Shown here: positions 236-51,060 of the stretch, piece after piece
Layout of the letters: each line of letters opens with the position of its first letter
Position numbering within the stretch: the first letter of the stretch is position 1
Assembly (NCBI GenBank): GCA_002798255.1
Contig: NWQQ01000027.1
Location: forward strand, 1-51,060
Origin: Lysobacteraceae bacterium NML95-0200
GTDB lineage: Bacteria > Pseudomonadota > Gammaproteobacteria > Xanthomonadales > Xanthomonadaceae
Direction of reading: 5' to 3'
DNA length: 51,060 nt
Translations under genes and position numbers: made by a program
The notes under the pieces: generated by a model
Seen by the model: the letters and a program-made list of their open reading frames with translations, nothing else
What the model was told of the DNA's origin: nothing
Databases searched by the model: none

Positions 236-1747
236 TTATTTCACGCCGTGCATCAGCTTGTTGATCACCGGCGAGAGCAGGAAGAACACGACTGCGCAGC
301 CCAGCCCCAGCCAGAACAGCTGGTTGAAGGTGCTGCCGTAGTGCGCCAGTGCGCTGGCACGGTCGGCCACCTCACCGGCGCCACCGGAAGCGATTGCCGC
401 GATGCGTCCGGCCACGAAGTTGGCCATCGCAATCGACAGGAACCAGCCGCCCATGGCCAGCCCGGTTTCCTGCGGGCGTGCCAGTTTGGTGACCATCGCC
501 AAGCCAATCGGCGACAGGCACAGCTCACCCATGGTGTGAATCAGATAAGTCAGGGTCAGCCAGATCCAGGAAATGTTCTGGTTGGCATCGGCAGTGTTGT
601 TGATGGCAAACACCAGAATGTAGAAGCCCAATGCCGCGCCCAGGAGGCCGATGGCGAACTTGCGCGGAATCGACGGGTTCCAGTCAGCCTTGTCGAGCTT
701 GACCCAGAGCGAGGCAAACAGCGGCGCCAGCAGGATGATGAACACCGGGTTGACCGACTGGAAGATTTCAAAGGTGGGTTGCCAGCCAAACAGCGTGGTT
801 TCCGGCATCTTTACATGGTCTTGCGCCAGAAAGTTGAGCGAGGAGCCGGCCTGCTCGAACAGCGACCAGAACAGGATGTTGGCAAAGAACAGAATCAGCA
901 TGGCGATATAGCGATGCAGCTGCGCCTTCTCGCCGCTCTTGACGCCACTCCAGATGAAATAAAGCGCCAGTGCCGCCATCATCACGCCCAGCACCACGGC
1001 CAGCACTTCACTCTGGCTCAGCAGGAAATACACCGGCACCACCAGCAGGGCTGCGGCAATAGCGATTTGCAGCACCGGCCCCCAGCCTTCCTTGCCCTTG
1101 GGCGCAGTGCCGACATGCCCCAGCCAGCCCTTCAGTGCCTGGAAAATCATCAGCCCCAGCAGCATGCCCATGCCGGCGCTGAAGAAGCCCCAGCGATAGC
1201 CGTATTTCTGCCCGATCCAGGTGGCGCAGATAATCGGCGCAATCAGCGCACCGGCATTGATGCCCATGTAGAAGATGGTGAAGCCCGAGTCGCGGCGGGC
1301 ATCGCCCGGGGCGTAGAGCTTGCCGACCATCGAGGAAATATTCGGCTTGAACAGGCCATTACCGACCACCAATACCGCCAGGCCGATAATGAAGGTGGTG
1401 AGGTCAGGCGCCATCAGCATGAAGCTGCCGATTGCCATCAACACCCCGCCCAGCATGATCGAGCGCTGGTAGCCAAGAATGCGGTCGGCCACATAGCCAC
1501 CGGCGATGCCGGTCATGTACACCAGCGAGGTGAAGCCGCCATAGGTCAGGCTGGCCTGCTCGCGCGCCTCGGCGCCGGAGAGATGGGCAAAGAACTGTGC
1601 GGCAATGTGCACGGCCAGCATGGCGCGCATGCCGTAGTACATGAAGCGCTCCCAGAACTCAGTGCCAAACAGGTTCCAAAGCGCCCGGGGGTGGCCAAGA
1701 AATTCTCCGGCCGGTGGTGGCTGGAAAGCAGGTTGATTCGCACTCAT
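236..1747 (-). CDS. POT/PTR-family proton-dependent oligopeptide transporter
   Basis: Inner-membrane symporter of the POT (PTR2) branch of the major facilitator superfamily, which takes up di- and tripeptides with protons. Near the N terminus the protein has the family signature ExxERFxYY (seen as EFWERFMYYG), followed by a chain of hydrophobic segments typical of the 12-14 helix fold. With the ATG at 1747 it is 503 residues, the usual family length. The frame stays open upstream to 1834, but the extra 29 residues look like non-coding sequence, so the MSANQ start is preferred. The gene stands alone and is divergent from the RND pump operon. A hairpin terminator follows it. The exact peptide specificity cannot be read from the sequence. 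Confidence 0.9.
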   Translation of the reverse strand: MSANQPAFQPPPAGEFLGHPRALWNLFGTEFWERFMYYGMRAMLAVHIAAQFFAHLSGAEAREQASLTYGGFTSLVYMTGIAGGYVADRILGYQRSIMLGGVLMAIGSFMLMAPDLTTFIIGLAVLVVGNGLFKPNISSMVGKLYAPGDARRDSGFTIFYMGINAGALIAPIICATWIGQKYGYRWGFFSAGMGMLLGLMIFQALKGWLGHVGTAPKGKEGWGPVLQIAIAAALLVVPVYFLLSQSEVLAVVLGVMMAALALYFIWSGVKSGEKAQLHRYIAMLILFFANILFWSLFEQAGSSLNFLAQDHVKMPETTLFGWQPTFEIFQSVNPVFIILLAPLFASLWVKLDKADWNPSIPRKFAIGLLGAALGFYILVFAINNTADANQNISWIWLTLTYLIHTMGELCLSPIGLAMVTKLARPQETGLAMGGWFLSIAMANFVAGRIAAIASGGAGEVADRASALAHYGSTFNQLFWLGLGCAVVFFLLSPVINKLMHGVK

Positions 1748-2038
1748 GCGTGATTCCCGTAGCTGTTGAATGAATGCCACCCAAACGGACGGCGACCCAC
1801 GAGGATTACGGAGCATCCGCTTGCCGTCAATCAAAAAAGATGCTGCGGCGCAGCATGAGTGTGTTGTTTTGTGAAGTTAAGCGCGCTTTTCCGTTCGTGG
1901 TTGGGCCTCATGCAGTGCGCTGTCAACAGCTTTATGTCGCATGCGTTGATCTTGGGTTATCCATGTCCAATGGCAGGGGGTATTGGGCTTGGGACTGGAT
2001 AAAATTTCCCATTCGCCAGCCGTTGAATGCCAGCCATC

Positions 2039-3118
2039 ATGATACGCAAATCCCGTTTCGCCGTTACCGCCGCACTGCTGTTGGCGACCTTGTTGAGTGC
2101 CTGTGGCAAGTCCGAGCCTGCCGGGCGGCAAGGCCGGGGGCAGCCGCAGGCAGTGCCGGTGGTGATTGACAGCGTGCAGCCGGCTACGGTTTCGGAAAGC
2201 CTGGCGGCGGTGGGCACGGTCAGTGCGCGCGAGTCAGTGACCTTGACGGCCAAAGTCAGTGAAACCGTCGAGCGGGTGCATTTTGAAAGTGGTCAGCAGG
2301 TGGCGCGCGGTGCGGCGCTGGTCACGCTTTCCGGGCAGCAGCAGCGGGCGGCCTTGCAGGCGGCCGAGGCCAATGCCGAGGAGGCCGAGCGGCTGTATCA
2401 ACGCAACCGGCAGCTGGTCGAGCAGCAATTGATTGCCCGCGCCAGTTTCGATGCGCAAGAAGCCAGTCGCAGTGCGACACGGGCGCAGGTGGCGCAAATC
2501 CGCGCGCAACTGGCCGACCGGGTGATTCGCGCACCGTTTTCCGGGGTGCTGGGGCTTCGTCAGGTCAGTCCCGGTGCACTGGTCACGCCGGGCACGGTGA
2601 TTACCACGCTGGACGACATCAGCCGTGTGTATGTGGACTTCCCGCTGCCTGAGTCGCAGCTGGCATTGCTGGGGGTTGGGCAGCGCCTGATTGGCACTAC
2701 TGCGGCCTGGCCGGGGCGCAGTTTCGAGGGCGTGGTCACGACCATCAATACCCGCATTGATCCGGATAGTCGCGCGATCATGGTGCGCGCCGACTTTGCC
2801 AATCCCGACCGCGCCTTGCGCCCGGGCATGTTGTTCAATGTGCAATTGCAGCAGGCTGAAAGAAAGGCGCTGATGGTGCCAGAGATTGCCCTGACGCAAG
2901 TGGGGCGCGAGAGCTTTGTGTGGAAGGTGGATGCCGAAGACAAGGTGCAGCAAAGCGCAGTGGTGACCGGCTATCGTGAGGCGGGCAAGGTGGAAATCGT
3001 GCAGGGTCTGGAGGCGGGCGAGCGCATCGTGGTCGAAGGCGTAGGCAAGCTGCGCGCCGGACAGCGCGTGGTGCAGGCCGGGGCAGCGGCTGAAAAATCC
3101 GGCGCAGCAAAACCATGA
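2039..3118 (+). CDS. RND efflux periplasmic adaptor (membrane fusion lipoprotein)
   Basis: Adaptor of a tripartite RND multidrug efflux pump. It would bridge the inner-membrane permease and an outer-membrane channel. The N terminus is a lipoprotein signal (MIRKSRF, hydrophobic run, lipobox LSAC), so the mature protein is anchored by a lipidated Cys in the inner-membrane outer leaflet. The order of beta-barrel and lipoyl half-motifs around a coiled hairpin rich in Ala, Gln and Arg (about residues 95-165) matches the HlyD/AcrA family. The frame also opens with an ATG at 2027. Neither start has a clear Shine-Dalgarno, and I chose 2039 because it gives a compact signal peptide. Its stop overlaps the permease start (ATGA at 3115-3118). 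No outer-membrane factor gene is adjacent. Confidence 0.88.
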   Translation: MIRKSRFAVTAALLLATLLSACGKSEPAGRQGRGQPQAVPVVIDSVQPATVSESLAAVGTVSARESVTLTAKVSETVERVHFESGQQVARGAALVTLSGQQQRAALQAAEANAEEAERLYQRNRQLVEQQLIARASFDAQEASRSATRAQVAQIRAQLADRVIRAPFSGVLGLRQVSPGALVTPGTVITTLDDISRVYVDFPLPESQLALLGVGQRLIGTTAAWPGRSFEGVVTTINTRIDPDSRAIMVRADFANPDRALRPGMLFNVQLQQAERKALMVPEIALTQVGRESFVWKVDAEDKVQQSAVVTGYREAGKVEIVQGLEAGERIVVEGVGKLRAGQRVVQAGAAAEKSGAAKP

Positions 3119-6100
3119 AGCTTTCCGATATCTCCATCCAGCGGCCCGTATTTGCCACGGTGATGAGCCTGTTGCTCATCGTGCTTGGCATCATGTCGTT
3201 CCAGCGTCTGACGGTGCGCGAGCTGCCGGCCATCGACCCGCCGGTGGTTTCGGTGGATGTCAGCTATCCGGGCGCGTCAGCGGCGGTGGTGGAAACCCGC
3301 ATCACCCAGTTGCTGGAAAGCGCGCTGGCCGGGATTGAGGGCATCAATACCATCGAGTCGAGCAGTCGCAACGGGCGCGCCTCGGTGACCATCGAGTTCA
3401 ACCTCAACCGCGATATCGAAGCCGCTGCCAATGATGTGCGCGATGCTATCAGCCGGGTTGTGGGGCGCTTGCCACAGGAGGCCGATGCGCCACGGGTGGC
3501 GAAGGTGGAATCCGATGCCGATGTAATTCTTTGGTTGAACATGCGCTCCACACAGATGGACACGCTGGCGCTGACCGACTATGCCAACCGCTATATCGTT
3601 GACCGGCTCTCGGCGCTCGATGGCGTGGCGCAAGTGCAGGTGGGTGGCGGGCAGAACTATGCCATGCGCATCTGGCTGGATCGTGACGCATTGGCCGCAC
3701 GCGGTCTGGCACCAGCCGACGTGGAGGCGGCGTTGCGTGCGGAGAATGTGGAGCTGCCTGCCGGGACGCTGGAATCGGCGCAGCGTGATTTCACCCTGCG
3801 CATGCAGCGCGATTACACCAGTGCCGAAGCGTTTGCCCGCCTGCCCATCAAGCGCGGCGCAGATGGCTATGTGGTGCGACTGGATGATGTTGCCGATGTA
3901 GAACTGACCGCGGCTGAGCGCCGTTCCTATCTGCGCAGCAATTTCCAGCCCAATGTCGGCCTTGGCATCGTGCGCACCTCCACCGCCAATGCGCTGGAAG
4001 TGGCGCGCGCGGCGCGCGCCGAGGCCGAGAAGATTCAGGACAGCCTGCCCGAAGGCACGGAAATCTTCGTCGCCTATGACAGCACCATCTTCATCGATGC
4101 CTCCATCAAGCGTGTGTACTGGACGTTGGTCGAGGCTGCCATTTTGGTGGTGGCGGTCATCTGGCTGTTCCTTGGCAGCCTGCGCGCGGCGATCATCCCG
4201 GCGGTAACCGTGCCGGTGTGTCTGGTCAGCGCCTTCATCGCCCTGTATGCGTTTGGCTATTCCATCAACCTTCTGACGCTGCTGGCGCTGGTGCTGTGCA
4301 TTGGCCTGGTGGTGGACGATGCCATCGTGGTGCTGGAAAACATCCAGCGCCGTACCGATTTGGGTGAGCCCGCCCTGTTGGCCGCCAAGCGTGGCACCCG
4401 GCAGGTGGCATTTGCGGTGATTGCCACCACCGCCGTGCTGGTGGCGGTGTTCCTGCCGGTGGGCTTCATGGAAGGCAATACTGGCCGCCTGTTCCGCGAA
4501 TTGTCGATTGCACTGGCAGGGGCGGTGGCGATTTCCGCCTTCGTGGCGTTGACGCTCACGCCGATGATGTGTGCGCAAATGGTGCGTGCCCACGGCAAGC
4601 AGAGCGGCTTCAATGCCTGGATGAACCGTCAGCTCGCGCGCTTGGGCGATGCTTACGGGCGCAGCATCACGCGCATGCTGGCGCTGAAAACAAGCCGGAT
4701 TGGCCTGCTGGTCGGGCTGGTGATGCTGGGCTGCCTGGCACTGGCGGCGCTGCTGTATCCGCGGGTGCCCAGCGAGCTTGCCCCCAGCGAAGACCGTGGC
4801 CGCTTTTTTGTCAGCATCAATGCGCCTGAAGGCGCCGGCTTTGACTACACCGTCTCGCAAGTGCAGCAAGTGGAAGAAGTGCTGCGCCCACTGATTGGCG
4901 AGGACAAGCCCATCGTGCGCGCCAATTCGCGTGCGCCCGGCTGGGGCGGCGGTGAAGACATGCACACCGGCAATGTCATCGTCTTCATGCAGGATTGGGA
5001 CAAGCGCGAAGTCAGCACCGAAGAAGTCGTCAATCAGGTGCGCCGCGAGCTTGGCAAGCTGCCCGGCGTGCAGGCGCGCGCCTCTGCCCCTGGCGGTTTG
5101 GTGGGCGGGCGCAGCGGTGGCCGCTTCAGCTTGGTGCTGGGCGGGCCAAACTACGAAGAACTGGTGCAATGGCGCGACCGGATGATGGCGCGCATGGATG
5201 AGTACCCCGGCCTTCTGGCACCGGATTCGGACTACAAGGAAACCCGCCCGCAAATGCGGGTATTGATTGATCGTGCGCGTGCTGCTGACCTGGGCGTGTC
5301 GGTCACCGAGATTGGCCGTACCCTGGAAACCCTGATGGGCAGCCGCCGCGTGACCACTTTTGTCGATGATGGTCGTGAGTACGACGTCATCATGCAGGGC
5401 GAGCGCGACAAGCGCATGACCCCGGCCGACCTTGGCCAGACTCAGGTGCGCGGACGCGGCGGCAGCCTGGTGCCGCTGTCGAATCTGGTGACACTCGAAG
5501 AACTGGCCGAGCCGGGGCGCTTCAACCGCTTCAACCGCCTGCGTGCCATCACCGTGACCGCAGACCTGGCACCGGGCACCAGCATGGGCGAGGCGATTGC
5601 CTGGGCACAGCAGACTGCCCGCGAAGAACTGCCCGGCCACGCACAGATTGACTGGAAGGGCGAAACCCGCGAATACCTGCGCAGCGGCAGCGCCGTGTTG
5701 CTCACTTTCGCCATGGCACTGATGATTGTCTATCTGGTGCTCTCGGCGCAGTTCGAGAGCTTCATCCACCCCTTGGTCATCATGTTCACTGTGCCGCTGG
5801 CCGTGCTGGGGGCGCTGATTGGCCTGTGGGTGACTGGCAGCAGCTTCAACCTGTTTTCGCAAATCGGCATCGTCATGCTGGTCGGGCTGGCAGCCAAGAA
5901 TGGCATCCTGATTGTCGAGTTTGCCAACCAGTTGCGCGATGAAGGCCGCAGTGTGACAGCGGCCATTGCCGAGGCCAGCGCGGTGCGCCTGCGCCCGATT
6001 CTGATGACTTCCACCGCCACCGTGGTCGGTGCCCTGCCACTGGTGATTTCCGGTGGCCCCGGCTCGGCCAGCCGCGCGGCCATTGGTATCGTCATCATCT

Positions 6101-6246
6101 TCGGCGTGTCCTTCGCCACCTTGCTGACCCTGTTCGTGGTGCCGGCCTTGTACGCCCTGCTGGCACCCTTTACCCGCTCTCCGGATGCCCTGAGGCACGA
6201 ACTGGAAGCACTGGAAGCCGGCACCCCGCATGTGCAGGGGCATTAG
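3115..6246 (+). CDS. RND multidrug efflux permease (HAE1 type)
   Basis: The 1043-residue inner-membrane proton/drug antiporter of the pump, of typical AcrB-family length. It begins KLSDISIQRPVFATVMSLLL, the usual first helix. The proton-relay pair of aspartates is visible in helix 4 (GLVVDDAIVVLEN, near residue 401) and the matching lysine in helix 10 (GLAAKNGILIVEF, near residue 928). Two large periplasmic loops follow helices 1 and 7, as expected. It is translationally coupled to the upstream adaptor. An unlinked TolC-like channel is presumably recruited. Drug specificity cannot be predicted. The sequence type is nearest to the MexK-like branch, from memory only. Confidence 0.92.
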   Translation: MKLSDISIQRPVFATVMSLLLIVLGIMSFQRLTVRELPAIDPPVVSVDVSYPGASAAVVETRITQLLESALAGIEGINTIESSSRNGRASVTIEFNLNRDIEAAANDVRDAISRVVGRLPQEADAPRVAKVESDADVILWLNMRSTQMDTLALTDYANRYIVDRLSALDGVAQVQVGGGQNYAMRIWLDRDALAARGLAPADVEAALRAENVELPAGTLESAQRDFTLRMQRDYTSAEAFARLPIKRGADGYVVRLDDVADVELTAAERRSYLRSNFQPNVGLGIVRTSTANALEVARAARAEAEKIQDSLPEGTEIFVAYDSTIFIDASIKRVYWTLVEAAILVVAVIWLFLGSLRAAIIPAVTVPVCLVSAFIALYAFGYSINLLTLLALVLCIGLVVDDAIVVLENIQRRTDLGEPALLAAKRGTRQVAFAVIATTAVLVAVFLPVGFMEGNTGRLFRELSIALAGAVAISAFVALTLTPMMCAQMVRAHGKQSGFNAWMNRQLARLGDAYGRSITRMLALKTSRIGLLVGLVMLGCLALAALLYPRVPSELAPSEDRGRFFVSINAPEGAGFDYTVSQVQQVEEVLRPLIGEDKPIVRANSRAPGWGGGEDMHTGNVIVFMQDWDKREVSTEEVVNQVRRELGKLPGVQARASAPGGLVGGRSGGRFSLVLGGPNYEELVQWRDRMMARMDEYPGLLAPDSDYKETRPQMRVLIDRARAADLGVSVTEIGRTLETLMGSRRVTTFVDDGREYDVIMQGERDKRMTPADLGQTQVRGRGGSLVPLSNLVTLEELAEPGRFNRFNRLRAITVTADLAPGTSMGEAIAWAQQTAREELPGHAQIDWKGETREYLRSGSAVLLTFAMALMIVYLVLSAQFESFIHPLVIMFTVPLAVLGALIGLWVTGSSFNLFSQIGIVMLVGLAAKNGILIVEFANQLRDEGRSVTAAIAEASAVRLRPILMTSTATVVGALPLVISGGPGSASRAAIGIVIIFGVSFATLLTLFVVPALYALLAPFTRSPDALRHELEALEAGTPHVQGH

Positions 6247-7685: not shown

Positions 7686-9146
7686 TTGGAAGATTTCATC
7701 AAAGATTTCAATTCGCTGGTCTGGAGCCGGCCGCTGATTTGGCTGTGTCTTGGCGCGGGGCTGTACTTCTCGCTGCGCACCCGCTTCGTGCAGCTGCGGC
7801 AGTTGAAGGAAATGGTGCGGTTGTTGCTGAGCGACAAGCGTTCGGAAGCGGGCGTGTCCTCATTCCAGGCATTGGCGGTTTCGCTGTCCGGGCGGGTGGG
7901 CATGGGCAATATCGCCGGGGTGGCCACCGCCATCGGTTTTGGCGGGCCGGGGGCGGTGTTCTGGATGTGGATCGTGGCCTTTCTGGGCGCGTCCACGGCC
8001 TATGTGGAATCCACGCTGGCGCAAATCTACAAGGAAAAGGACGAAGACGGCCGTTACCGCGGCGGGCCTGCGTATTACATCGAAAAGGCCATGGGGCAGA
8101 AGTGGTATGCATGGCTGTTTGCCATCGTCACCATCATCGCCACTGGCTTCCTGCTGCCGGGGGTGCAGGCCAATGGCATCGCCAAGGGGATGGCAGAAGC
8201 CTTTGACTTCAAACCGGAGCTGGTTGCTACCGTAGTGGTAGTGCTGCTTGGCTTCATCATCTTTGGTGGCGTCAAGCGTATCGCCCGGGTGGCCGAAGTG
8301 GTGGTACCGTTCATGGCGCTGGCCTATGTGCTGGTGGCGATGGTGATTATGCTGCTCAATGCCGAGCTGCTGCCACAGATGTGGCTGATGATTCTCAAGA
8401 GCGCCTTTGGCCTTGATGCGGCGTTTGGCGCGGTGGTCGGGCTGGCGGTGGAATGGGGCGTCAAGCGCGGCATCTATTCCAACGAGGCCGGGCAAGGCAC
8501 GGGGCCGCATGCGGCGGCGGCGGCGGAAGTCTCGCATCCGGCCAAGCAGGGGCTGGTACAGGCATTTTCGGTGTATGTCGATACCCTGCTGCTGTGCACA
8601 GCGACGGCTTTCATGATTCTTTCCACCGGCATGTACAACGTGCTGCGCCCGGACAAGGCCGGGATGATTGTTGAATATCTGCCCGGTATTGACCATGAAG
8701 GCCCGGCCTTTGCCCAGCGTGCGGTGGAAGTCATCCTGCCCGGTTACGGTGCCGGCTTTGTGGCGCTGGCGCTGTTCTTCTTTGCCTTTACCACACTGAT
8801 GGCCTATTACTACATGGCCGAAACCAATGTCGCCTATCTCAACCGCAGGCTGCATGCGCCATGGCTGACTTTTGTACTGCGTCTGCTGCTGTTGGCCGCG
8901 GTGACCTTTGGCGCGGTGCGCAGCGCCGAGATGGCCTGGACGCTGGGCGATATCGGCGTGGGGCTGATGGCATGGCTCAATATCATCGCCATCTTGATTT
9001 TGCAAAAACCGGCACTGGCCTGTCTGTACGATTACGAGATGCAGAAAAAGGCGGGTATCGAAGAGCCGCAGTTCGACCCGGATGCATTGGGCATCAAAAA
9101 CGCGAACTTCTGGCGTGAACGCAAGGCATCCCGCCATGCAGATTGA
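7686..9146 (+). CDS. AGCS-family sodium:alanine (amino acid) symporter
   Basis: Inner-membrane sodium- or proton-coupled uptake of alanine, glycine or related amino acids. Recognised from the N-terminal LVWSRPLIWLCLGAGLYFSL and RTRFVQLRQLKEM, then GRVGMGNIAGVATAIGFGGP, GGPAYYIEKAMG and SNEAGQGTGPHAAAA, all hallmark AGCS (AlsT/YaaJ) motifs. About ten or eleven hydrophobic segments follow. An ATG exists far upstream at 7584, but the extra residues are polar and low-quality. A TTG at 7686 has GGGGAA six bases upstream and gives a 486-residue protein of normal length, so I use it. The 3' end overlaps the methyltransferase gene by 11 bases. Confidence 0.9.
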   Translation: MEDFIKDFNSLVWSRPLIWLCLGAGLYFSLRTRFVQLRQLKEMVRLLLSDKRSEAGVSSFQALAVSLSGRVGMGNIAGVATAIGFGGPGAVFWMWIVAFLGASTAYVESTLAQIYKEKDEDGRYRGGPAYYIEKAMGQKWYAWLFAIVTIIATGFLLPGVQANGIAKGMAEAFDFKPELVATVVVVLLGFIIFGGVKRIARVAEVVVPFMALAYVLVAMVIMLLNAELLPQMWLMILKSAFGLDAAFGAVVGLAVEWGVKRGIYSNEAGQGTGPHAAAAAEVSHPAKQGLVQAFSVYVDTLLLCTATAFMILSTGMYNVLRPDKAGMIVEYLPGIDHEGPAFAQRAVEVILPGYGAGFVALALFFFAFTTLMAYYYMAETNVAYLNRRLHAPWLTFVLRLLLLAAVTFGAVRSAEMAWTLGDIGVGLMAWLNIIAILILQKPALACLYDYEMQKKAGIEEPQFDPDALGIKNANFWRERKASRHAD

Positions 9147-20176: not shown

Positions 20177-21577
20177 ATGCATAAAACCGCACTTGCCGCA
20201 GCCTGCGCAGCATTGTTGCTGTCGGCCTGCGCCAGCACTTCATCCAGCAAGCCTGCCGCCTCTGCAACGGAAGGCAGCAAAAAAGTCGCCGCGCTCACTG
20301 CGGATGCCTATCCCAGTACCTACCGGCCAATTCCTTCGGCGCCAGTATTGCTTGCCGGCGCCACTGTGCTTGATGGCCTTGGCAAACGCCTTGAAAATGC
20401 CGATGTATTGATGGCCGAGGGCAAGATTGTCGCCGTCGGCAATGGCATCAGTGCGCCGGAAAATGTCATCCGCGTGGATGCCCGCGGCAAGTGGGTCACG
20501 CCCGGCATCATTGATGTGCACTCGCATCTGGGCGTGTATCCAAGCCCGGCGGCATCTGCGCACAGCGATGGCAATGAAATGACCGCGCCGGTCACGGCCC
20601 AGGTCTGGGCTGAGCATTCCATCTGGCCGCAAGACCCGGGCTTTGCCACCGCGCTGGCCGGTGGCGTGACCAGCCTGCAAATCCTGCCCGGCTCGGCCAA
20701 CCTGATTGGCGGTCGGGGCGTGACCTTGAAGAATGTCTATAGCACCAGCTATCAGGGCATGAAGTTCCCCGGCGCGCCATGGGGTCTGAAAATGGCCTGC
20801 GGCGAAAACCCCAAGCGGGTGTATGGCAACAAGGGCGGACCTTCGACGCGGATGGGCAATATCGCCGGGTTCCGTGCGGCCTTCATTGAGGCGGCCGAAT
20901 ATCTGAAAAAACAGGAAGCAGGCAAGGACAGCGGCAAGCGTGACTTGAAGCAGGAAACCCTGGCCGCCACCCTCAATGGCGACATCCTGGTGCATAACCA
21001 CTGCTATCGCGCCGATGAAATGGCCATCATGCTCGATTTGGCAAAAGAGTTCGGTTTCCGTATCAGCGCCTTCCATCACGGCGTCGAGGCCTACAAGCTG
21101 GCTGACCGGCTGGCGGCCGAAGGCGTTTGTGCGGCGCTCTGGGCCGACTGGTGGGGCTTCAAGATGGAATCTTTCGACGGTATCCAGGAAAATCTGCTGC
21201 TGGTTGACCGCGCACCGGGCGGCTGCGCCATCGTGCATAGCGACTCGGGCGAAGGTATCCAGCGCCTCAACCAGGAGGCCGCCAAAATCATCGCCAATGG
21301 CCGCCGCATCGGCATCGACATCACGCCCGAGCACGCTATCCGCTGGTTGACCAGCAATGCCGCAAAATCCATGGGCATCGACCACCTGACCGGCTCGCTG
21401 GAGCCGGGCAAGATGGCCGATGTGGTGCTGTGGAACGGCAATCCGTTCTCCAGCTATGCACTGGCCGAACAGGTGTATATCGACGGCGCCAGGCTGTATG
21501 ACCGCGCCGATGTACGCCTGCAACCCCAATCCGACTTCCTGCTGGGGCAGGAGCTGATGCAAGGAGACGCCCGATGA
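20177..21577 (+). CDS. Exported amidohydrolase-family lipoprotein
   Basis: Metal-dependent hydrolase of the amidohydrolase superfamily (466 residues), probably anchored in the envelope. The lipoprotein signal is clear: MHKTALAAACAALLLSACAS with lipobox LSAC. The composite metal site is visible as GIIDVHSHLG (HxH), a later His in LVHNHCYRADEM, another in SAFHHGVEAY, and the Asp in IVHSDSGEG. The C-terminal LEPGKMADVVLWNGNPFSSY is the standard closing strand of imidazolonepropionase or dipeptidase-like members. The substrate is not known. Its last codons overlap the next gene (ATGA at 21574-21577), which encodes a related but metal-site-deficient partner. Confidence 0.85.
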   Translation: MHKTALAAACAALLLSACASTSSSKPAASATEGSKKVAALTADAYPSTYRPIPSAPVLLAGATVLDGLGKRLENADVLMAEGKIVAVGNGISAPENVIRVDARGKWVTPGIIDVHSHLGVYPSPAASAHSDGNEMTAPVTAQVWAEHSIWPQDPGFATALAGGVTSLQILPGSANLIGGRGVTLKNVYSTSYQGMKFPGAPWGLKMACGENPKRVYGNKGGPSTRMGNIAGFRAAFIEAAEYLKKQEAGKDSGKRDLKQETLAATLNGDILVHNHCYRADEMAIMLDLAKEFGFRISAFHHGVEAYKLADRLAAEGVCAALWADWWGFKMESFDGIQENLLLVDRAPGGCAIVHSDSGEGIQRLNQEAAKIIANGRRIGIDITPEHAIRWLTSNAAKSMGIDHLTGSLEPGKMADVVLWNGNPFSSYALAEQVYIDGARLYDRADVRLQPQSDFLLGQELMQGDAR

Positions 21578-44522: not shown

Positions 44523-44551
44523 TTGACAGTCTGCCACAGTAATTGAAAGAT
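44523..44551 (+). promoter_or_regulatory. Possible promoter of the Pil-Chp operon
   Basis: A perfect TTGACA at 44523-44528, a 17-base spacer and AAAGAT (44546-44551) as a weak -10. It lies about 50 bases before the pilG start in AT-richer DNA. The -10 is poor, so another sigma factor or an activator could be involved. Confidence 0.4.
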
Positions 44552-44600
44552 GGATTTTTTAGAAACTGCAAGGTTCCAGTCAATTCTGGGGACGATGTCT

Positions 44601-44993
44601 ATGCAAGCAACAAACAACGGGAGCAATGGCCTCAAGGTGATGGTGATTGACGACTCCAAGACGATTCGTCGTACCGCCGAGACATTGCTCAAGCGGGAAG
44701 GCTACGAGGTGGTGACTGCCAACGACGGTTTTGAGGCGTTGGCGCTGATTGCCGACCAGCATCCGCACATCATTTTCGTGGACATCATGATGCCGCGCCT
44801 GGACGGCTACCAGACCTGCGCGCTGATCAAGAACAATCAGGCGTTCAAGTCCACGCCAGTCATCATGCTCTCTTCCAAGGACGGGCTGTTTGACAAGGCG
44901 CGGGGGCGGATTGTGGGCTCGGAGGAATATCTCACCAAGCCCTTTACCCGCGAAGAATTGCTGGATGCCATTCGCACTTATGTGAACGTTTGA
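44601..44993 (+). CDS. pilG: Twitching motility response regulator PilG
   Basis: Single-domain CheY-like receiver (130 residues) of the Pil-Chp system; phosphorylated by ChpA, it promotes pilus extension through the c-di-GMP and cAMP pathways. The start of the domain is GLKVMVIDDSKTIRRTAETL, which is nearly invariant in PilG. Phospho-acceptor Asp61 in IIFVDIMMPRLDGYQTCALI, and the switch lysine in EYLTKPFTREEL. The long run PVIMLSSKDGLFDKARGRIV is diagnostic of PilG rather than PilH. ATGs at 44595 and 44601 both fit; the second has better Shine-Dalgarno spacing (GGGGA, eight bases). Confidence 0.93.
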   Translation: MQATNNGSNGLKVMVIDDSKTIRRTAETLLKREGYEVVTANDGFEALALIADQHPHIIFVDIMMPRLDGYQTCALIKNNQAFKSTPVIMLSSKDGLFDKARGRIVGSEEYLTKPFTREELLDAIRTYVNV

Positions 44994-45040: not shown

Positions 45041-45583
45041 ATGAATGCCGTGTCGATGACACCCTTTGAGCGGTTGCAAGATTATGAACGCCGGAGCCTG
45101 ACGCATGTGGCGGGTAACCCGTTGCAGGCAGGCGAGGGGGCGCAGTGGCGTGGCCTGGCCTATCGCATCGGCCAGCGGCGGCTGGTCTCGGATCATACCC
45201 ATGTGGTCGAGATTCTTGGCGTGCCTTCGGTGACGCCGGTGCCCGGCGCGCAGCCGTGGCTGCTGGGGCTTGCCAATGTGCGCGGCAACCTGCTGGCCGT
45301 GGTGGATCTCAAGCACTTTCTGGAAGGTCAGCGCAGTGTCCAGCATGAGCGGCAGCGGATGCTGGTCATCCGCCAGCCTGGTGGCGATGTCGGCGTGCTG
45401 GTGGATGAGCTGTATGGTCAGCGCGGCTTTGACGCCGAACAGCAGACAGAGGCCGGTGATCTGGCGGAAGGCCGTTATGCCACGTTGGTTGAGCAGGTCT
45501 ATTGTCAGCAGGATGAACGCTGGGCAGTATTCAATCTGGAGCGTTTGGCGCGCATTCCGGAGTTTCGTCAGGCTGCGGCCTGA
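45041..45583 (+). CDS. pilI: Chemotaxis coupling protein PilI (CheW-like)
   Basis: 180 residues with one CheW domain (about residues 30-175). It links the receptor PilJ to the kinase ChpA. The stretch PGAQPWLLGLANVRGNLLAV with DLKHFL is the typical PilI pattern, and ERWAVFNLERLARIPEF closes the domain. It follows pilG directly with a 47-base gap; pilH is not in between. Confidence 0.92.
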   Translation: MNAVSMTPFERLQDYERRSLTHVAGNPLQAGEGAQWRGLAYRIGQRRLVSDHTHVVEILGVPSVTPVPGAQPWLLGLANVRGNLLAVVDLKHFLEGQRSVQHERQRMLVIRQPGGDVGVLVDELYGQRGFDAEQQTEAGDLAEGRYATLVEQVYCQQDERWAVFNLERLARIPEFRQAAA

Positions 45584-45660
45584 TTCTTAACACCTGCCTG
45601 GTGGCCGGTTTGCTGTCAGCCAGGCGCAGTATTGATTCAATCTAAATCGAGGTCTTGAAA

Positions 45661-47685
45661 ATGAGCGCAGCCAGCGGTTCGACGAATGGCAAAGCCCGTG
45701 AAGGCGGCAGCAATTTCTGGTTGATTTTGCTGACCGTTTCCATTTTGGTGTTCGCGGCCAATACCGTGGCCTCAGTCTGGCGGGCAACCCGGCTGGGGGG
45801 GGCAACAGCGGCTGTGGCTGAGTTACAGGTGCTCTCGCAGCAGCTGGCAAGCCAGGCGCTGGCGGCCACCGGGGGAGATGCTGAAGTATTCAGTGACTTC
45901 AAGGCAACGCATGGCAAGATTGAGGAAAACCTGAATCTGGTGAGCAATGACTACGGCAAGGATCTTTCCGTGGCGGCGCCCATCAGCCAAATCAGGAAGA
46001 CCTGGGCGCCGCTGGCGCAAAGTGCCCAGCAGATTATCGACAGCGAGCCGGTGGTCACCAGCCTGGGCAGTAATGCCGAGCGTTTCAATGCTGCCGTGCC
46101 ACAGATTCAGGCGCATCTGGATGAAATGGTGCGTGCCATGTCCAGCGCCGGGGTGCCTTCCAGCCAGCAGTACATCGCCATGCGCCAGTCGATTCTGGTG
46201 TCTTCGATGGCGCGCCGGATTGCGGAAATCCGCGCCGGTGGCAGTGCTGCGCCGCTGGCAGGACAGGGACTGCGCCAGGACGTGCTGATATTCGAGCAAG
46301 TAATGGCCGGGCTTGCCGATGGCGCAGAAAATGCGCAAGGCGCCCAGCGCCTGACTGTGGGCAGAGCCGTACAGGCATTGAATCAGGCCAGAGAGATTTG
46401 GGGGGGCATGAGCAAGGATCTGGCGGCTGTCCAGAGTGGCCTGGAGCGCCTGTTCCAGGCGCAGGCGGCATCCAGCAAGATTGCAGGCAATTCCGAGCAA
46501 ATGCTGAAGGATTCACGTCAATTGTTCAGTGCATTTACGGCGTCCGGTTCGCTCAAGGACACCAGCCTGGTTGGCAATATCTGGATTTCCATCATTTCCG
46601 GTGTGCTCACCCTGCTGGCGATTGGTGGCCTGCTGCGCAGCCTGTACCGCGCCCAGGCGGCGCGTCGTGTCTCGGCAGAAGAGCTGACCACCCGCAACCA
46701 GGAAGCGATTATGCGCTTGCTGGACGAAATGGGCTCGCTCGCAGAGGGTGACCTGACCGTGAAGGCCACCGTTACCGAAGACATGACTGGTGCGATTGCC
46801 GACTCCATCAACTTCGCTATCGAGCAACTGCGCACACTGGTGGGCACCATCAACGACACCTCGGTGCGGGTGGCATCTTCGGCACAGGAAACCCAGGCCA
46901 CCGCCATGCATCTGGCCGATGCGGCCGAGCATCAGGCGACGGAAATCACCTCGGCGACCGACCGCATCAACCAGATTGCCGACAGCATTAACCAGGTATC
47001 GCGCAATTCTGCACAGTCGGCGGAAGTGGCGCAGCGTTCGGTGGAAATCGCCACCAATGGTGCGGACGTGGTACGCCAGACCATTCGCGGCATGGACAAT
47101 ATCCGCGACCAGATTCAGGAAACTTCCAAGCGAATCAAGCGTCTGGGCGAGTCTTCGCAAGAAATCGGCGCCATCGTGGAACTGATTAACGACATTTCCG
47201 AGCAGACCAATATCCTGGCGCTGAATGCGTCGATTCAGGCCGCTTCTGCCGGTGAAGCAGGCCGCGGCTTTGCCGTGGTGGCCGACGAAGTGCAGCGCCT
47301 TGCAGAACGCACCTCCGGTGCGACCAAGCGAATTGAAGGCCTGGTGTCCACCATTCAGGCAGATACCAACGAAGCGGTCAGCTCGATGGAAGAAACCACC
47401 AGCGAAGTGGTGCAGGGCGCACGTCTGGCCGAAGACGCAGGTACGGCGCTGGGCGAAATCGAGCGCGTATCGAATGACCTGGCGCAATTGATTCAGGACA
47501 TTTCCAGGTCGGCGGCGCAGCAGTCGAATGCAGCATCCGATATTACCGGCACCATGAACACCATCCAGGCGATTACCCAGCAGACCACGCAAGGCGCAGG
47601 TCAAACCGCACAGTCGATTGGCAACCTGGCACAGCTGGCGGCCGACCTGCGCCGCTCGGTCGCTGACTTCAAGCTGCCGGCCTGA
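45661..47685 (+). CDS. pilJ: Methyl-accepting chemoreceptor PilJ
   Basis: Inner-membrane chemoreceptor for the Pil-Chp system, 674 residues. Helices at about 20-42 (FWLILLTVSILVFAANTVAS) and 303-325 (WISIISGVLTLLAIGGLLRS) enclose a periplasmic PilJ-type domain. Then follows a HAMP-like region and the MCP signalling hairpin with tip LINDISEQTNILALNASIQA and GRGFAVVADEVQRLAERTSG (about residues 505-560). No C-terminal methylation pentapeptide tether is seen. An ATG at 45661 with GAGG eight bases upstream is chosen rather than the TTG at 45655. Confidence 0.95.
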   Translation: MSAASGSTNGKAREGGSNFWLILLTVSILVFAANTVASVWRATRLGGATAAVAELQVLSQQLASQALAATGGDAEVFSDFKATHGKIEENLNLVSNDYGKDLSVAAPISQIRKTWAPLAQSAQQIIDSEPVVTSLGSNAERFNAAVPQIQAHLDEMVRAMSSAGVPSSQQYIAMRQSILVSSMARRIAEIRAGGSAAPLAGQGLRQDVLIFEQVMAGLADGAENAQGAQRLTVGRAVQALNQAREIWGGMSKDLAAVQSGLERLFQAQAASSKIAGNSEQMLKDSRQLFSAFTASGSLKDTSLVGNIWISIISGVLTLLAIGGLLRSLYRAQAARRVSAEELTTRNQEAIMRLLDEMGSLAEGDLTVKATVTEDMTGAIADSINFAIEQLRTLVGTINDTSVRVASSAQETQATAMHLADAAEHQATEITSATDRINQIADSINQVSRNSAQSAEVAQRSVEIATNGADVVRQTIRGMDNIRDQIQETSKRIKRLGESSQEIGAIVELINDISEQTNILALNASIQAASAGEAGRGFAVVADEVQRLAERTSGATKRIEGLVSTIQADTNEAVSSMEETTSEVVQGARLAEDAGTALGEIERVSNDLAQLIQDISRSAAQQSNAASDITGTMNTIQAITQQTTQGAGQTAQSIGNLAQLAADLRRSVADFKLPA

Positions 47686-47711: not shown

Positions 47712-47756
47712 ATGAGCCGTACTTCCTTCGCCAAGATTACCGGGGGGCAGCCATGA
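47712..47756 (+). CDS. 14-codon mini-ORF overlapping the chpA start
   Basis: ATG at 47712, encoding [14 protein letters not shown], with its TGA sharing the ATG of chpA (ATGA at 47753-47756). AAGGA lies 11 bases upstream. It could be a leader that couples chpA translation, or a chance open frame; no homology is recognised. Confidence 0.2.
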
Positions 47757-50700
47757 ACATGCTGCGCGAAGCGATTGACCATGCCACATTGGGTTGGATT
47801 AAGCCCGAGCTTGACTCCAGCCTGTTGCAGGTGCGGCAGGAAGTGGAAGCCTATGTTGAAGACGGCGCCGATCCGGAGCGGATGCGCAAGGCTGCAACCT
47901 TGCTGCACCAGGTACAGGGCAGCCTGCGCATGATTGAGCTGTATGCCCCGGCCATGGTGTCCGGGGAAATGCAGCAGCTGGCAGTAGCCATCGAGCAAGG
48001 CCAGGTGACAGCGACCAATGAGGCTTGCGCCGCGCTGATGCGTGGGGCGCTACAGCTACCGGACTATCTGGAACGTTTGCAGGGCGGGCACCGGGATATT
48101 CCCGTGGTACTGATGCCGCTGGTCAATGAATTGCGTGAAGTGCGCGGGCTCAAGCCGGTCAGTGAAGGTGTGTTCTTCAGCCCGGATTTGGCGTTGCCCG
48201 CCACGGCCATCCCCGATGCGCGCGAGGAGGCGGCCGATCCGCCAAGCACGGTGCAGTTGCAGCGGCTTGGCAAGGCGCTGGCAGCGTGGGGCGACGGACA
48301 GGCGGATTTTGCCGCCATGCACCAGGCGTTGCGCGCCCTGTCAGAAGAACCGGGCTCAGCAGAAGCACGCCGCCTGTTCTGGGTCGCCAGCCATGTGGCT
48401 GAAGCCGCAGCCGATGGTGCGCTGGAGGCCGATAGCGCATTGCGTACTGTGTTTGCCAGTGTGGAGCGCGAAGCGCGCAGCCTGTTTGGCAATAGCGATG
48501 AAGCCCGCCCGCTGCCGGTTTCCTCACTTGTCGAGCCGACCCGGCAGCTGCTGTATCAGGTTGCCAATAGCAAGGCCGAGCATCCGGCGCTTGCGCTGCT
48601 TCGCAACAGCTTCAGCCTGGATGCGCAGGCGCATGTGAGCGATAGCGAATATGCCAGCGCCAGGGGCAGCGTGACCGGCATCAACCGCGCATTGCTGGAT
48701 ACGGTTTCTGCGGCACTCAAAGAAGATGTGCTGCGTGTCAAGGACGCGCTGGATCTGTTCCTGCGCATGGGGCGCAAGGATGCGGAGGCGCTGGCGCCGC
48801 AGGCCGATGCCCTGGGACGGATTGCCGACACCCTGGGCATGCTGGATTTGGGGGTGGCGCGGCAAATCGTTATCACACAGCGTGATACCGTGGCCGACCT
48901 TGCCGCAGGGCGTATCCCGATGGACGAGAATGTCCTGCTGGATGTGGCCGGAGCACTGCTGTATGTCGATGCTTCCCTGGATGACCTGCACGAGCAAGTG
49001 ACCAGGGGGAGTGGCCGTACGGAGGAGAACCAGGACATGCTGGCCGCTTCCGAGCTGCGGCAGCTGATGGAGGCCTTGAGCCGTGAGGCCATTGCCAATT
49101 TCGACAATGCCCGCCAGGCGTTTGTGGCGTTTGTGGAAACCGGCTGGGATCACGCCCAGCTGCTGGATGTACCGGCGCTGCTGGAACAAGTGGTCGGGGC
49201 GCTGAAGATACTGGAGCTGCCTGAGGCGGCTGAATATCTGGCCGCCATTGGCCGCTATACCCAGGTGGAGCTGCTCACGCGCAAGCGCATCCCCGGCAAC
49301 CAGCAGCTCGACACGCTGGCCGATGCACTTTCCAGTATCGAGTATTACCTTGAAGCCCTGCGTGACCAGCGCGGCGGGCGCGAAAACATCCTGGCGATTA
49401 CTCGCAGCAGCCTGGAGGCACTGCATTACTGGCCGCTGCCGCCGGAAGAACTTGCCACAGATTTTGCACCGTTTGCCAACAGCCATGAGGACAGTTACGA
49501 GGACTGGCTGAGCGAGGCCAGCAAGCCGCAGGTCATGGATACCGAACCTGCTGCTGCGCAAGCGCAGCCTGAAGTCGAGACTGCCGGGCAAGTCTCGGTC
49601 GCGCAGTTCCTGGGTGAAGCACCGCAGGCCGAATCACTAACGCTGGCCGCCGCGTCTGCCGCAAGTGATGAGCTGCCTGCGGGCGTGCTGCCTGTTGAAG
49701 CCGGTGGCTTTGACCTTGGCAGCGATGAAATCGATGATGAAATCCGGGAAATCTTCCTGGAAGAAGTCGAAGAAGAAATCCGTAATCTGGATGAGCTGCT
49801 GCCGCAGTGGCGGCAGGCTCCCGATGACCTGGAACAGGCGCGCTCCATCCGGCGCGTATTCCATACCCTGAAGGGCAGTGGCCGCCTGGTCGGCGCGCGT
49901 TTGCTGGGCGAGTTCAGCTGGAAAGTGGAGAACATGCTGAACCGGGTGCTGGATGGCTCGCGTCCGGCCACGCCCGCCGTGCTGGCGCTGGTCACGCATG
50001 CCCATGAGGCGTTGCCTGCCCTGCTTGCTGCCCTGACCGGAACGCCGATTGCGCGGGATTTGGCAGGTATCGAGGCCGCCGCCGACCGCCTGGCGGCAGG
50101 TGAAGAAGTCCATTATCAGCCTGCCCTTGTAGCCGCGCAGCCGCCAATACAGGTGGCCGGGCAAGCGCCTGCCGAGACTGCTGCCGACGAGGACAGCGTG
50201 GCGGTGGAAGTCGATGCGGTATTGCTGGAAATTCTGGATGCCGAAGTCGCCGGTCACCTCAAGACCATCGACACCTGGCTGGCAGACCCGCAGGCGGCAG
50301 AGCATATGCCATCCAGCGAGTTGCTGCGCGCGGTGCACACCATGAACGGCGCTTTTGCGATGGCGGAAGTGCCGGAAATCACCCGTGCGACCGGGCCGAC
50401 CGAGAGCTGGCTGAAGCGTTCGCTGGCTGCCGGTGCTGTGGCTGGCGTTCAGGGCGTGGCGCTATTGGCCGAGCTGGCCAAGCAGATTCGCAGCACCGTC
50501 ACCGGCCTGAGCGGGCAGACACAGCGTGTGCCACTGCAAGACGCTTTGGCGGCACAGGCAGAAAGCCTGCGTGATGCCTTGCCAGAGGCCGTACTGCCTG
50601 ATGTGCATGAGCAGGCGCATGAAGCGCAGCGGTTGGAAGCCGAACGCCTCGAAGCCGAACGCCTCGAAGCCGAACGCCTCGAAGCCGAACGCCTCGAAGC

Positions 50701-51060
50701 CGAACGCCTCGAAGCCGAACGCCTCGAAGCCGAACGCCTCGAAGCCGAACGCCTCGAAGCCGAACGCCTCGAAGCCGAACGCCTCGAAGCCGAACGCCTC
50801 GAAGCCGAACGCCTCGAAGCCGAACGCCTCGAAGCCGAACGCCTCGAAGCCGAACGCCTCGAAGCCGAACGCCTCGAAGCCGAACGCCTCGAAGCCGAAC
50901 GCCTCGAAGCCGAACGCCTCGAAGCCGAACGCCTCGAAGCAGAACGCCTCGAAGCAGAACGCCTCGAAGCAGAACGCCTCGAAGCAGAACGCCTCGAAGC
51001 AGAACGCCTCGAAGCAGAACGCCTCGAAGCAGAACGTATCGAAGCAGAACGTATCGAAGC
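47753..51060 (+). CDS. chpA: Hybrid chemotaxis kinase ChpA/PilL, N-terminal part (cut by window edge)
   Basis: Open from the ATG at 47753 to the right edge (over 1,100 codons) with no stop; the kinase core, CheW-like and receiver domains expected for this family must lie beyond. Start chosen because GGGGGG lies five bases upstream. Within the window: a first Hpt-like helix bundle with His52 in [10 protein letters not shown], a ChpA-type helical region (about 80-560), an acidic low-complexity linker (570-660), a clear Hpt domain with His704 ([20 protein letters not shown]) and another Hpt-like domain with His862 ([12 protein letters not shown]). From residue 960 the protein becomes a pure RLEAE repeat. 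ChpA phosphorylates PilG and controls twitching motility. Its unusual linker is described under findings. Confidence 0.9.
50630..51060 (+). repeat. 15-bp tandem repeat encoding (RLEAE)n in chpA
   Basis: One founder-like copy (CGG TTG GAA GCC GAA) is followed by 19 identical units CGCCTCGAAGCCGAA (50645-50929), seven with GCA for GCC (50930-51034), then one with CGTATC (RIEAE) and a partial copy reaching the edge. That makes 28 complete copies plus 11 bases; the array continues beyond the window. The unit length keeps the reading frame. Confidence 0.95.

Follow-up and report, generated by a model that had tools for sequence, protein, structure and literature searches.

The chpA gene of Lysobacteraceae bacterium NML95-0200, whose 5' half lies at the end of the 51,060-bp stretch analyzed here (the window, which is the entire contig C7), carries a near-perfect array of 15-bp units where it encodes the linker from the third Hpt domain of the kinase to the fourth. 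We consider it likely, at a probability of roughly two in three, that this array is a fast-evolving coding minisatellite encoding a single-α-helix-like arm, which would act as a spacer between the distal Hpt domains and the kinase core. What emerges is a repeat hotspot in a known kinase; repeats and single α-helices of these kinds are already known, and the function is one that we infer.

A near-perfect pentapeptide array in the ChpA kinase

Tandem Repeats Finder (TRF) places the array at positions 50636 to 51060 of the window, with a period of 15 bp, 28.3 copies, and 99% matching; the sole other row in the window at the same score cutoff, at 20337 to 20372, has 1.9 copies. All units are in the frame of an open reading frame (ORF) on the forward strand that starts at 47753 and stays open to the contig end at 51060, the 5' half of chpA. 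A degenerate edge unit, EAQRL (GCG CAG CGG TTG, 50621 to 50635), was read directly and is identical in the sister genome G006. It is followed by 28 full units in three blocks: 20 identical copies of GAAGCCGAACGCCTC (GAA GCC GAA CGC CTC, EAERL; 50636 to 50935; found by TRF, pattern search, and reading), six identical copies of GAAGCAGAACGCCTC (GAA GCA GAA CGC CTC, also EAERL; 50936 to 51025; pattern search and reading), and two copies of GAAGCAGAACGTATC (GAA GCA GAA CGT ATC, EAERI), with 5 nt left before the contig stops (51026 to 51060; reading). Such near-identical in-frame units in homogeneous blocks characterize a variable-number tandem repeat, and none of 2,000 shuffles gave neighboring units as similar to each other. 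The initial annotation of the window had counted at least 28 copies, ordered them as GCC, GCA, and ATC types, and attributed them to blockwise expansion; TRF and the unit-by-unit reading agree with the count and the order, and the shuffling result bears out the expansion for the window array.

Three Pfam Hpt matches precede the array on the forward strand: Hpt1 (motif HQVQG, 47807 to 48082, 1.7e-6), Hpt2 (HTLKG, 49739 to 50014, 1.8e-15), and Hpt3 (HTMNG, 50222 to 50491, 1.9e-8), the motifs being assigned by reading. Hpt3 is the last domain ahead of the array, as the initial annotation had it. The other half of the gene, on contig C12, carries Pfam matches to Hpt, H-kinase_dim, HATPase_c, CheW, and Response_reg, so that ChpA has four Hpt matches, three in the window and one on C12. 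The two contigs together hold the architecture of a type IV pilus (Tfp)-class CheA (Hpt domains, dimerization domain, HATPase_c, CheW-like domain, and C-terminal receiver), and genes for a response regulator, a CheW protein, and a methyl-accepting chemotaxis protein (MCP) lie directly upstream. On this domain set and these adjoining genes, the gene is the Pil-Chp kinase ChpA, as had been proposed, of a species of the Lysobacteraceae, a family that we take to be the Xanthomonadaceae of other schemes. The histidine is retained in Hpt2, Hpt3, and the core-proximal Hpt4, and the array separates Hpt2 and Hpt3 from Hpt4.

Continuation of the array across a contig break

The window array reaches the contig end and continues, on the minus strand, at the end of contig C12, whose terminal unit is the same ATC type as the last units of C7. 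A search with a two-unit pattern (at most 2 mismatches in 30) gave matches in the bacterium's own genome only in the C7 array and at the C12 end. The C12 portion consists of 8 EAERI and 5 EAEGI units that run on into an open frame, 1,047 codons being open in total (3' half of chpA, locus L027, 8799 to 5656, minus strand, open from the contig end). Allowing for two shared ATC units, the array has at least 39 units (28 + 13 − 2), or 195 residues. In the sister genome G006 both halves are contiguous within a single ORF of 2,115 amino acids. Between the two genomes the C halves are 95 to 96% identical. The N part, 955 residues long, is 89% identical overall and 95% identical in the 310 residues leading up to the array.

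Two of the doubts attached to the array when it was first annotated were a stop or frameshift just beyond the edge and an assembly artifact. The frame on C12 stays open, with neither a stop nor a frameshift. An array, or a junction with the gene, made by the assembler might be suspected since the window array stops where its contig does, C12 closes with a perfect period-15 run of exactly 127 bp, and 5 of 17 genomes of the genus are split at or just before the site. Arrays at the same site lie inside contigs of other assemblies, however, three of which (G003, G012, and G013) consist of a single contig, and in G006 both halves are in frame and contiguous. We therefore reject an artifact as the source of the array and give that explanation next to no chance; doubt is limited to copy number. 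The 127-bp run suggests an assembler word length, so that the copy numbers of long perfect blocks are doubtful.

The splits themselves are in excess. The chpA gene is divided by contig ends at the array in G000 (the genome of the window), G001, G008, G009, and G011, in G009 just before the array and with no C half found; chance would put about 0.3 splits in a stretch of 600 bp (Poisson P of about 2e-5, with contig counts rounded). Assemblies are known to be fragmented or shortened by tandem repeats (PMC6868369), and in draft genomes of this group chpA may appear broken or mis-sized.

Arrays at the same site in related genomes

Sixty genomes, including that of the window, were searched, and all 60 gave a match; chpA stretches were taken from 40 relatives and then from G023 and G030. 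An array was scored where a tandem array of at least 90 nt lay in the Hpt3-Hpt4 linker; for several genomes the last 450 residues before Hpt4 were used or anchoring failed, and G027 and G034 were read directly. By this rule 29 of 36 genomes of the family, the window's own included, have an array, 26 of 33 by script and G023 (15 bp, 72% matching), G030, and G027 on individual reading. Among the seven not counted, G034 has two shorter 6-bp arrays, G032 an array of 74 nt, and G017 one of 63 nt; G018 and G022 have no tandem array in the linker; in G009 the contig ends before the array; and the G001 linker was read only to the contig end. Two of the eight genomes examined from other families of the order (8 of 24 searched) have such an array, G039 and G046.

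The same rule applied to the rest of the gene found no array in 38 of 40 relatives, some of them partial; the exceptions are G034, which reflects the anchoring failure, and G027, with an array between Hpt4 and the kinase. The best periods of the family arrays are 15, 18, 30, 36, 45, 90, or 105 nt, and the one off-period row, of 98 nt, stands beside a 54-nt row, next to an N in G033. As judged from these genomes, the Hpt3-Hpt4 linker is a hotspot of coding repeats that is common across the family.

Several arrays are irregular. In G027 (L172, contig C20, 2064 to 2173) the reading frame changes at the 6-bp array between Hpt4 and the kinase. In the single-contig genome G039 (L209, contig C1; frames 975 to 5736 and 4592 to 6200, minus strand), about 46 copies of an 18-bp unit encode PVVAEE, and the frame shifts near the 3' end of the array, so that either the gene is broken or the repeat was misread in sequencing. 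G033 (L210, contig C12 of that assembly) has a single N at base 1076, inside the array, where the frame changes, probably at an assembly gap. Two chpA 5' parts in the G014 bin (L151, contig C129; L204, contig C211) are 86% identical and have arrays that start differently; the bin may therefore mix two related species.

ChpA genes of other Gammaproteobacteria also contain unrelated tandem arrays, located between domains: L087 (5640 to 5957, 51 bp), L108 (4889 to 5048, 21 bp), L060 (5800 to 5908, 15 bp), L059 (1 to 162, 6 bp), and L093 (5841 to 5964, 6-bp units). Repeat-bearing ChpA linkers are therefore found beyond one family.

Rapid turnover of array length and unit sequence

A copy number fixed in all relatives, which the initial annotation had named as grounds for refuting it, is not what the relatives show: both array length and units differ. 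Among the 12 genus relatives with an uncut linker, the linker is 139 to 390 residues long and the number of 15-nt units runs from 9 to 53, in a comparison between species with one genome per species; this range includes G003 and G012, with other unit types, and G013, with an interruption within the span. The window species has at least 39 units versus 30 EAERL units in its sister G006. The two differ by 0.05 changes per column in the C half and have the first edge unit in common, but the interior has been rebuilt: the G006 array follows a CGC/CGT pattern and contains none of the GCA, ATC, and GGT variants.

Units of EAER followed by Leu, Val, Ile, or Ala are found in most of the genus and in G019, G021, G028, and G029. 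Other unit types are nearly pure AAEQA (G012), AAEQAEAER (G003 and G031), EAEAI (G026), AAAEA-like units (G020 and G030), a 12-residue type (G024), and 18-bp types (G025, G027, G033, and G039). In the tree G003 and G012 are sisters, and the array-bearing G026 stands beside genomes with nonrepetitive linkers. Across these genomes the comparison shows arrays changing quickly from species to species, in length as well as in unit sequence.

This turnover bears on whether the charged helix is a docking platform for partners in the pilus machinery or at the pole, with its units repeated for avidity. A repetitive surface would suit such a role, as would a motif, EYxRLExEY, which 11 of 40 relatives carry past the array or, in the case of G018, in a linker that has none. 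Between the close species G003 and G012, however, the unit sequence has been replaced, the interior differs between G000 and G006 as described above, and no copy of the motif was found in three members of the clade to which the window belongs (G001, G006, and G010). We regard docking as unlikely.

The motif EYxRLExEY merits separate description. It lies 3' of the array, was seen in 2 of 11 named loci tested, and occurs in the linkers of L146 to L152, L157 to L159, L165, L029, and L033, with RLEAE inside the motif in most. It may be a seed of the array (RLEAE lies within EYARLEAEYAE) or a functional motif. A charged segment past the array with two similar stretches, EFEDFM and EFRDFM (L027, about 8000 to 8600, minus strand), is present in G000, G001, G006, and G010 and was not seen by eye in the other linkers of the genus that were compared.

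A predicted long, charged, nonamphipathic helix

AlphaFold2, run in single-sequence mode on the translation of 50201 to 51058, predicts one unbroken helix of 154 residues (residues 132 to 285 of P0001; 50594 to 51055, forward strand), with a predicted local distance difference test (pLDDT) score of about 97 at mid-helix. Means over 10 residues are 62 and 86 at the start of the helix, 91 to 97 over residues 151 to 270, and 84 and 71 at the end. Within EAERx arrays every Arg has Glu at positions −3 and +4 (E1-R4 and R4-E8, by reading), and E→R(+3) and R→E(+4) are the two most preferred Glu-Arg helix pairs, ranked first and second in section 6 of PMC5347031.

A long uninterrupted predicted helix would also be expected of a coiled coil or oligomerizing rod, and some designed Arg-rich helices aggregate, according to PMC5347031. 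The period of five residues nevertheless gives no lasting stripe. At 100°, the hydrophobic moment is 0.010 for (EAERL)28 versus 0.344 for GCN4; the best 18-residue stretch reaches 0.165 versus 0.448, and at 3.5 residues per turn the values are 0.000 and 0.372. Over 95 to 106° the moment of the array is at most 0.030, with neither a heptad nor a hendecad stripe. On this analysis a coiled coil was rejected, and we hold it to be very unlikely. The array thus combines a long continuous predicted helix with charged i/i+3 and i/i+4 pairs and no seam, as in single-α-helix (SAH) domains, and (EAERx)n is predicted to form one long, charged, nonamphipathic α-helix of this kind. An α-helix rises 0.15 nm per residue, which gives a predicted arm of about 29 nm for 39 units. 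The three structural claims of the initial annotation fared well: the absence of a lasting Leu stripe is seen in the near-zero moment, the long helix holds as a prediction of the AlphaFold2 run, and the helix-favoring spacing of Arg and Glu corresponds to the top-ranked pairs of PMC5347031.

Weighing the predicted helical arm

A number of observations weigh against the helical spacer. The Hpt3 part of the single-sequence model has low confidence (10-residue means of 43 to 59), and the model is silent on monomer state and stiffness. As a control, the 443-residue linker of Pseudoxanthomonas beigongshangi (G032) was predicted to be disordered (mean pLDDT of 42); G022 and G017 have acidic linkers with Pro or Gly at this site; PVVAEE in G039, of another family, and EAEAI in G026 lack Glu-Arg pairing; and the far-end EAEGI units on C12 have Gly in place of Arg. 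Aggregation is reported for Arg-rich helices designed de novo around a 7-residue repeat (PMC5347031). Some relatives have disordered or Pro-containing linkers at this site, which speaks against a rigid arm being conserved. In 8 of 15 residue-filtered sets (window, C12, L139, L144, L147, L150, L152, and L161) adjacent units resemble each other more than shuffled ones do, at the 0.05 level, but in the other 7 (L140, L143, L145, L149, L151, L155, and L168) they do not. Finally, an array of at least 5 copies lies elsewhere in the ChpA frame in 3 of 77 named loci with a usable frame (L077, L087, and L108); since these arrays are outside the Hpt3-Hpt4 linker, other linkers can also form arrays.

Selection among units was examined as the ratio of nonsynonymous to synonymous changes (pN/pS). 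Residue-filtered selection of units biases this ratio, so the relatives were rescored on unfiltered TRF spans; the window and C12 are outside this set and were scored in the residue-filtered run only (0.11 for C7 and 0.14 for C12). Among the 18 unfiltered arrays of relatives, the ratio ranges from 0.00 to 0.59, with a median of 0.30, and is below 1 in all 18; homogenization depresses pN and pS alike, a further point against the spacer, and since unit pairs from the same array depend on one another, the unit-based statistics are descriptive. EAERx arrays largely retain Glu, Ala, and Arg, and Leu, Val, Ile, and Ala interchange at the fifth position, with further variation at Ala/Thr in G016 and G004. 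Changes among units are shown by these comparisons to be mostly synonymous.

These data also bear on a simpler explanation, that the array is a tolerated by-product: the linker need only be long, acidic, and soluble, slippage at Ala and Glu codons makes arrays, and helix, stiffness, and exact length are irrelevant. Consistent with this, arrays and disordered linkers alternate at one site within the family, a neighboring family has a Pro-containing array, the linker spans the wide range of lengths given above in the 12 uncut genus relatives, and nearly all linkers are net negative and rich in Ala and Glu. A mere by-product accounts less well for pN/pS values below 1 throughout and the near-invariance of Glu and Arg in most EAERx arrays; for the absence, in 38 of 40 relatives, of any similar array elsewhere in the gene; and for the retention in EAERx of both Glu-Arg pairings preferred in PMC5347031. 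We consider this explanation possible, though it is not the one that we favor. Rigidity does not appear to be a family-wide need, given the disordered linker of G032, the Pro/Gly-containing linkers of G022 and G017, and the units without Glu-Arg pairs in G039 and G026. As the helix is not conserved across the family, a length-tolerant spacer is favored.

A possible spacer in the phosphorelay

In Pseudomonas aeruginosa, ChpA is reported to autophosphorylate on Hpt4 to Hpt6, its receiver (REC) domain exchanges phosphate with Hpt2 to Hpt6, and PilG and PilH receive phosphate mainly from Hpt2 and Hpt3 (reviewed in PMC5812489). From their order, we infer that the Hpt domains here match those of P. 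aeruginosa one to one. The arm would then be a spacer that sets the reach of the distal Hpt2-Hpt3 module to the core formed by Hpt4, kinase, CheW, and REC. The array lies at the apparently matching Hpt3/Hpt4 boundary, and its length would therefore alter the reach of the relay. Slippage or recombination would expand or contract the array in five-residue steps with the frame intact.

A phase-variable on/off switch was rejected for this gene, as the 15-bp unit is divisible by three. The periods of relatives are nearly all multiples of three; the frame changes in or beside the arrays of G039, G033, and G027 may be errors. We also considered a length dial, in which copy number would change so often within populations that arm length differs among cells of a clone, altering how well REC recharges Hpt2 and Hpt3 and so spreading pilus behavior across the population, the family re-inventing the array at one site with new unit sequences. 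This joint proposal seems to us doubtful. For the spacer, the wider interest lies in the many phosphotransfer domains of ChpA, the reason for which is described as poorly understood in a 2025 review (PMC12632253): a site that repeatedly varies the distance between donors and core is a natural experiment on this question, with many ready-made lengths.

Comparison with known systems

The closest parallel for the repeat is E. coli tolA, likewise a variable in-frame repeat in a long α-helical region joining two functional parts (PMC3477136). In that study 234 isolates had between 8 and 16 copies; contractions arose within a clonal population at 6.9e-5 and were largely RecA dependent, and stress phenotypes changed with copy number. 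TolA, unlike ChpA, connects cytoplasmic membrane and periplasm, and its 13 repeats are imperfect (PMC3477136); the ChpA array lies in a multi-Hpt kinase and consists of near-perfect pentapeptides, with unit types that differ between species.

SAH domains occur from bacteria to humans (PMC4183817). Like the SAH (ER/K) domains of myosins, the ChpA array is long, rich in Glu and Arg, and free of a stripe, has i+3/i+4 Glu-Arg pairs, and joins two domains (PMC4183817, PMC5347031). It differs in its strict period of five, one aliphatic residue per unit, the absence of Lys from the window units, and near-perfect repetition at the DNA level.

The protein as a whole resembles P. aeruginosa ChpA and other Tfp-class CheA proteins in its multiple Hpt domains, kinase core, and C-terminal REC (PMC10542144, PMC12632253, PMC5812489) and, as in P. 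aeruginosa, is encoded with CheW-like, MCP, and response regulator genes. The four Pfam Hpt matches here compare with eight or nine Xpt domains reported in those sources for P. aeruginosa ChpA. The word "repeat" is absent from the main text of PMC10542144; the literature searched yielded no report of repeats in ChpA, and EAERL-type peptide strings gave no match there.

Relatives and neighboring genes

Named relatives by the C-terminal half, among the best 80 of 588 loci, include Lysobacter, Xanthomonas, Stenotrophomonas, and Pseudoxanthomonas; no relative was found among viral contigs. The ChpA protein of G032, a genome ranked in the same family, is identical to that of P. beigongshangi (L037), which is classified in the Lysobacteraceae. 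NCBIfam gave nothing above its cutoffs for the cluster proteins among the matches listed. Upstream of chpA, all on the forward strand, the pil-chp cluster comprises a response regulator gene (44550 to 44993; Pfam Response_reg, 1.5e-28), which from position and general knowledge is presumably PilG/PilH-like; a gene for a CheW-like adaptor (45041 to 45583; Pfam CheW, 2.7e-26), PilI-like by position; and a gene for a methyl-accepting chemotaxis receptor (45655 to 47685; Pfam MCPsignal, 1.2e-42), PilJ-like on the same basis.

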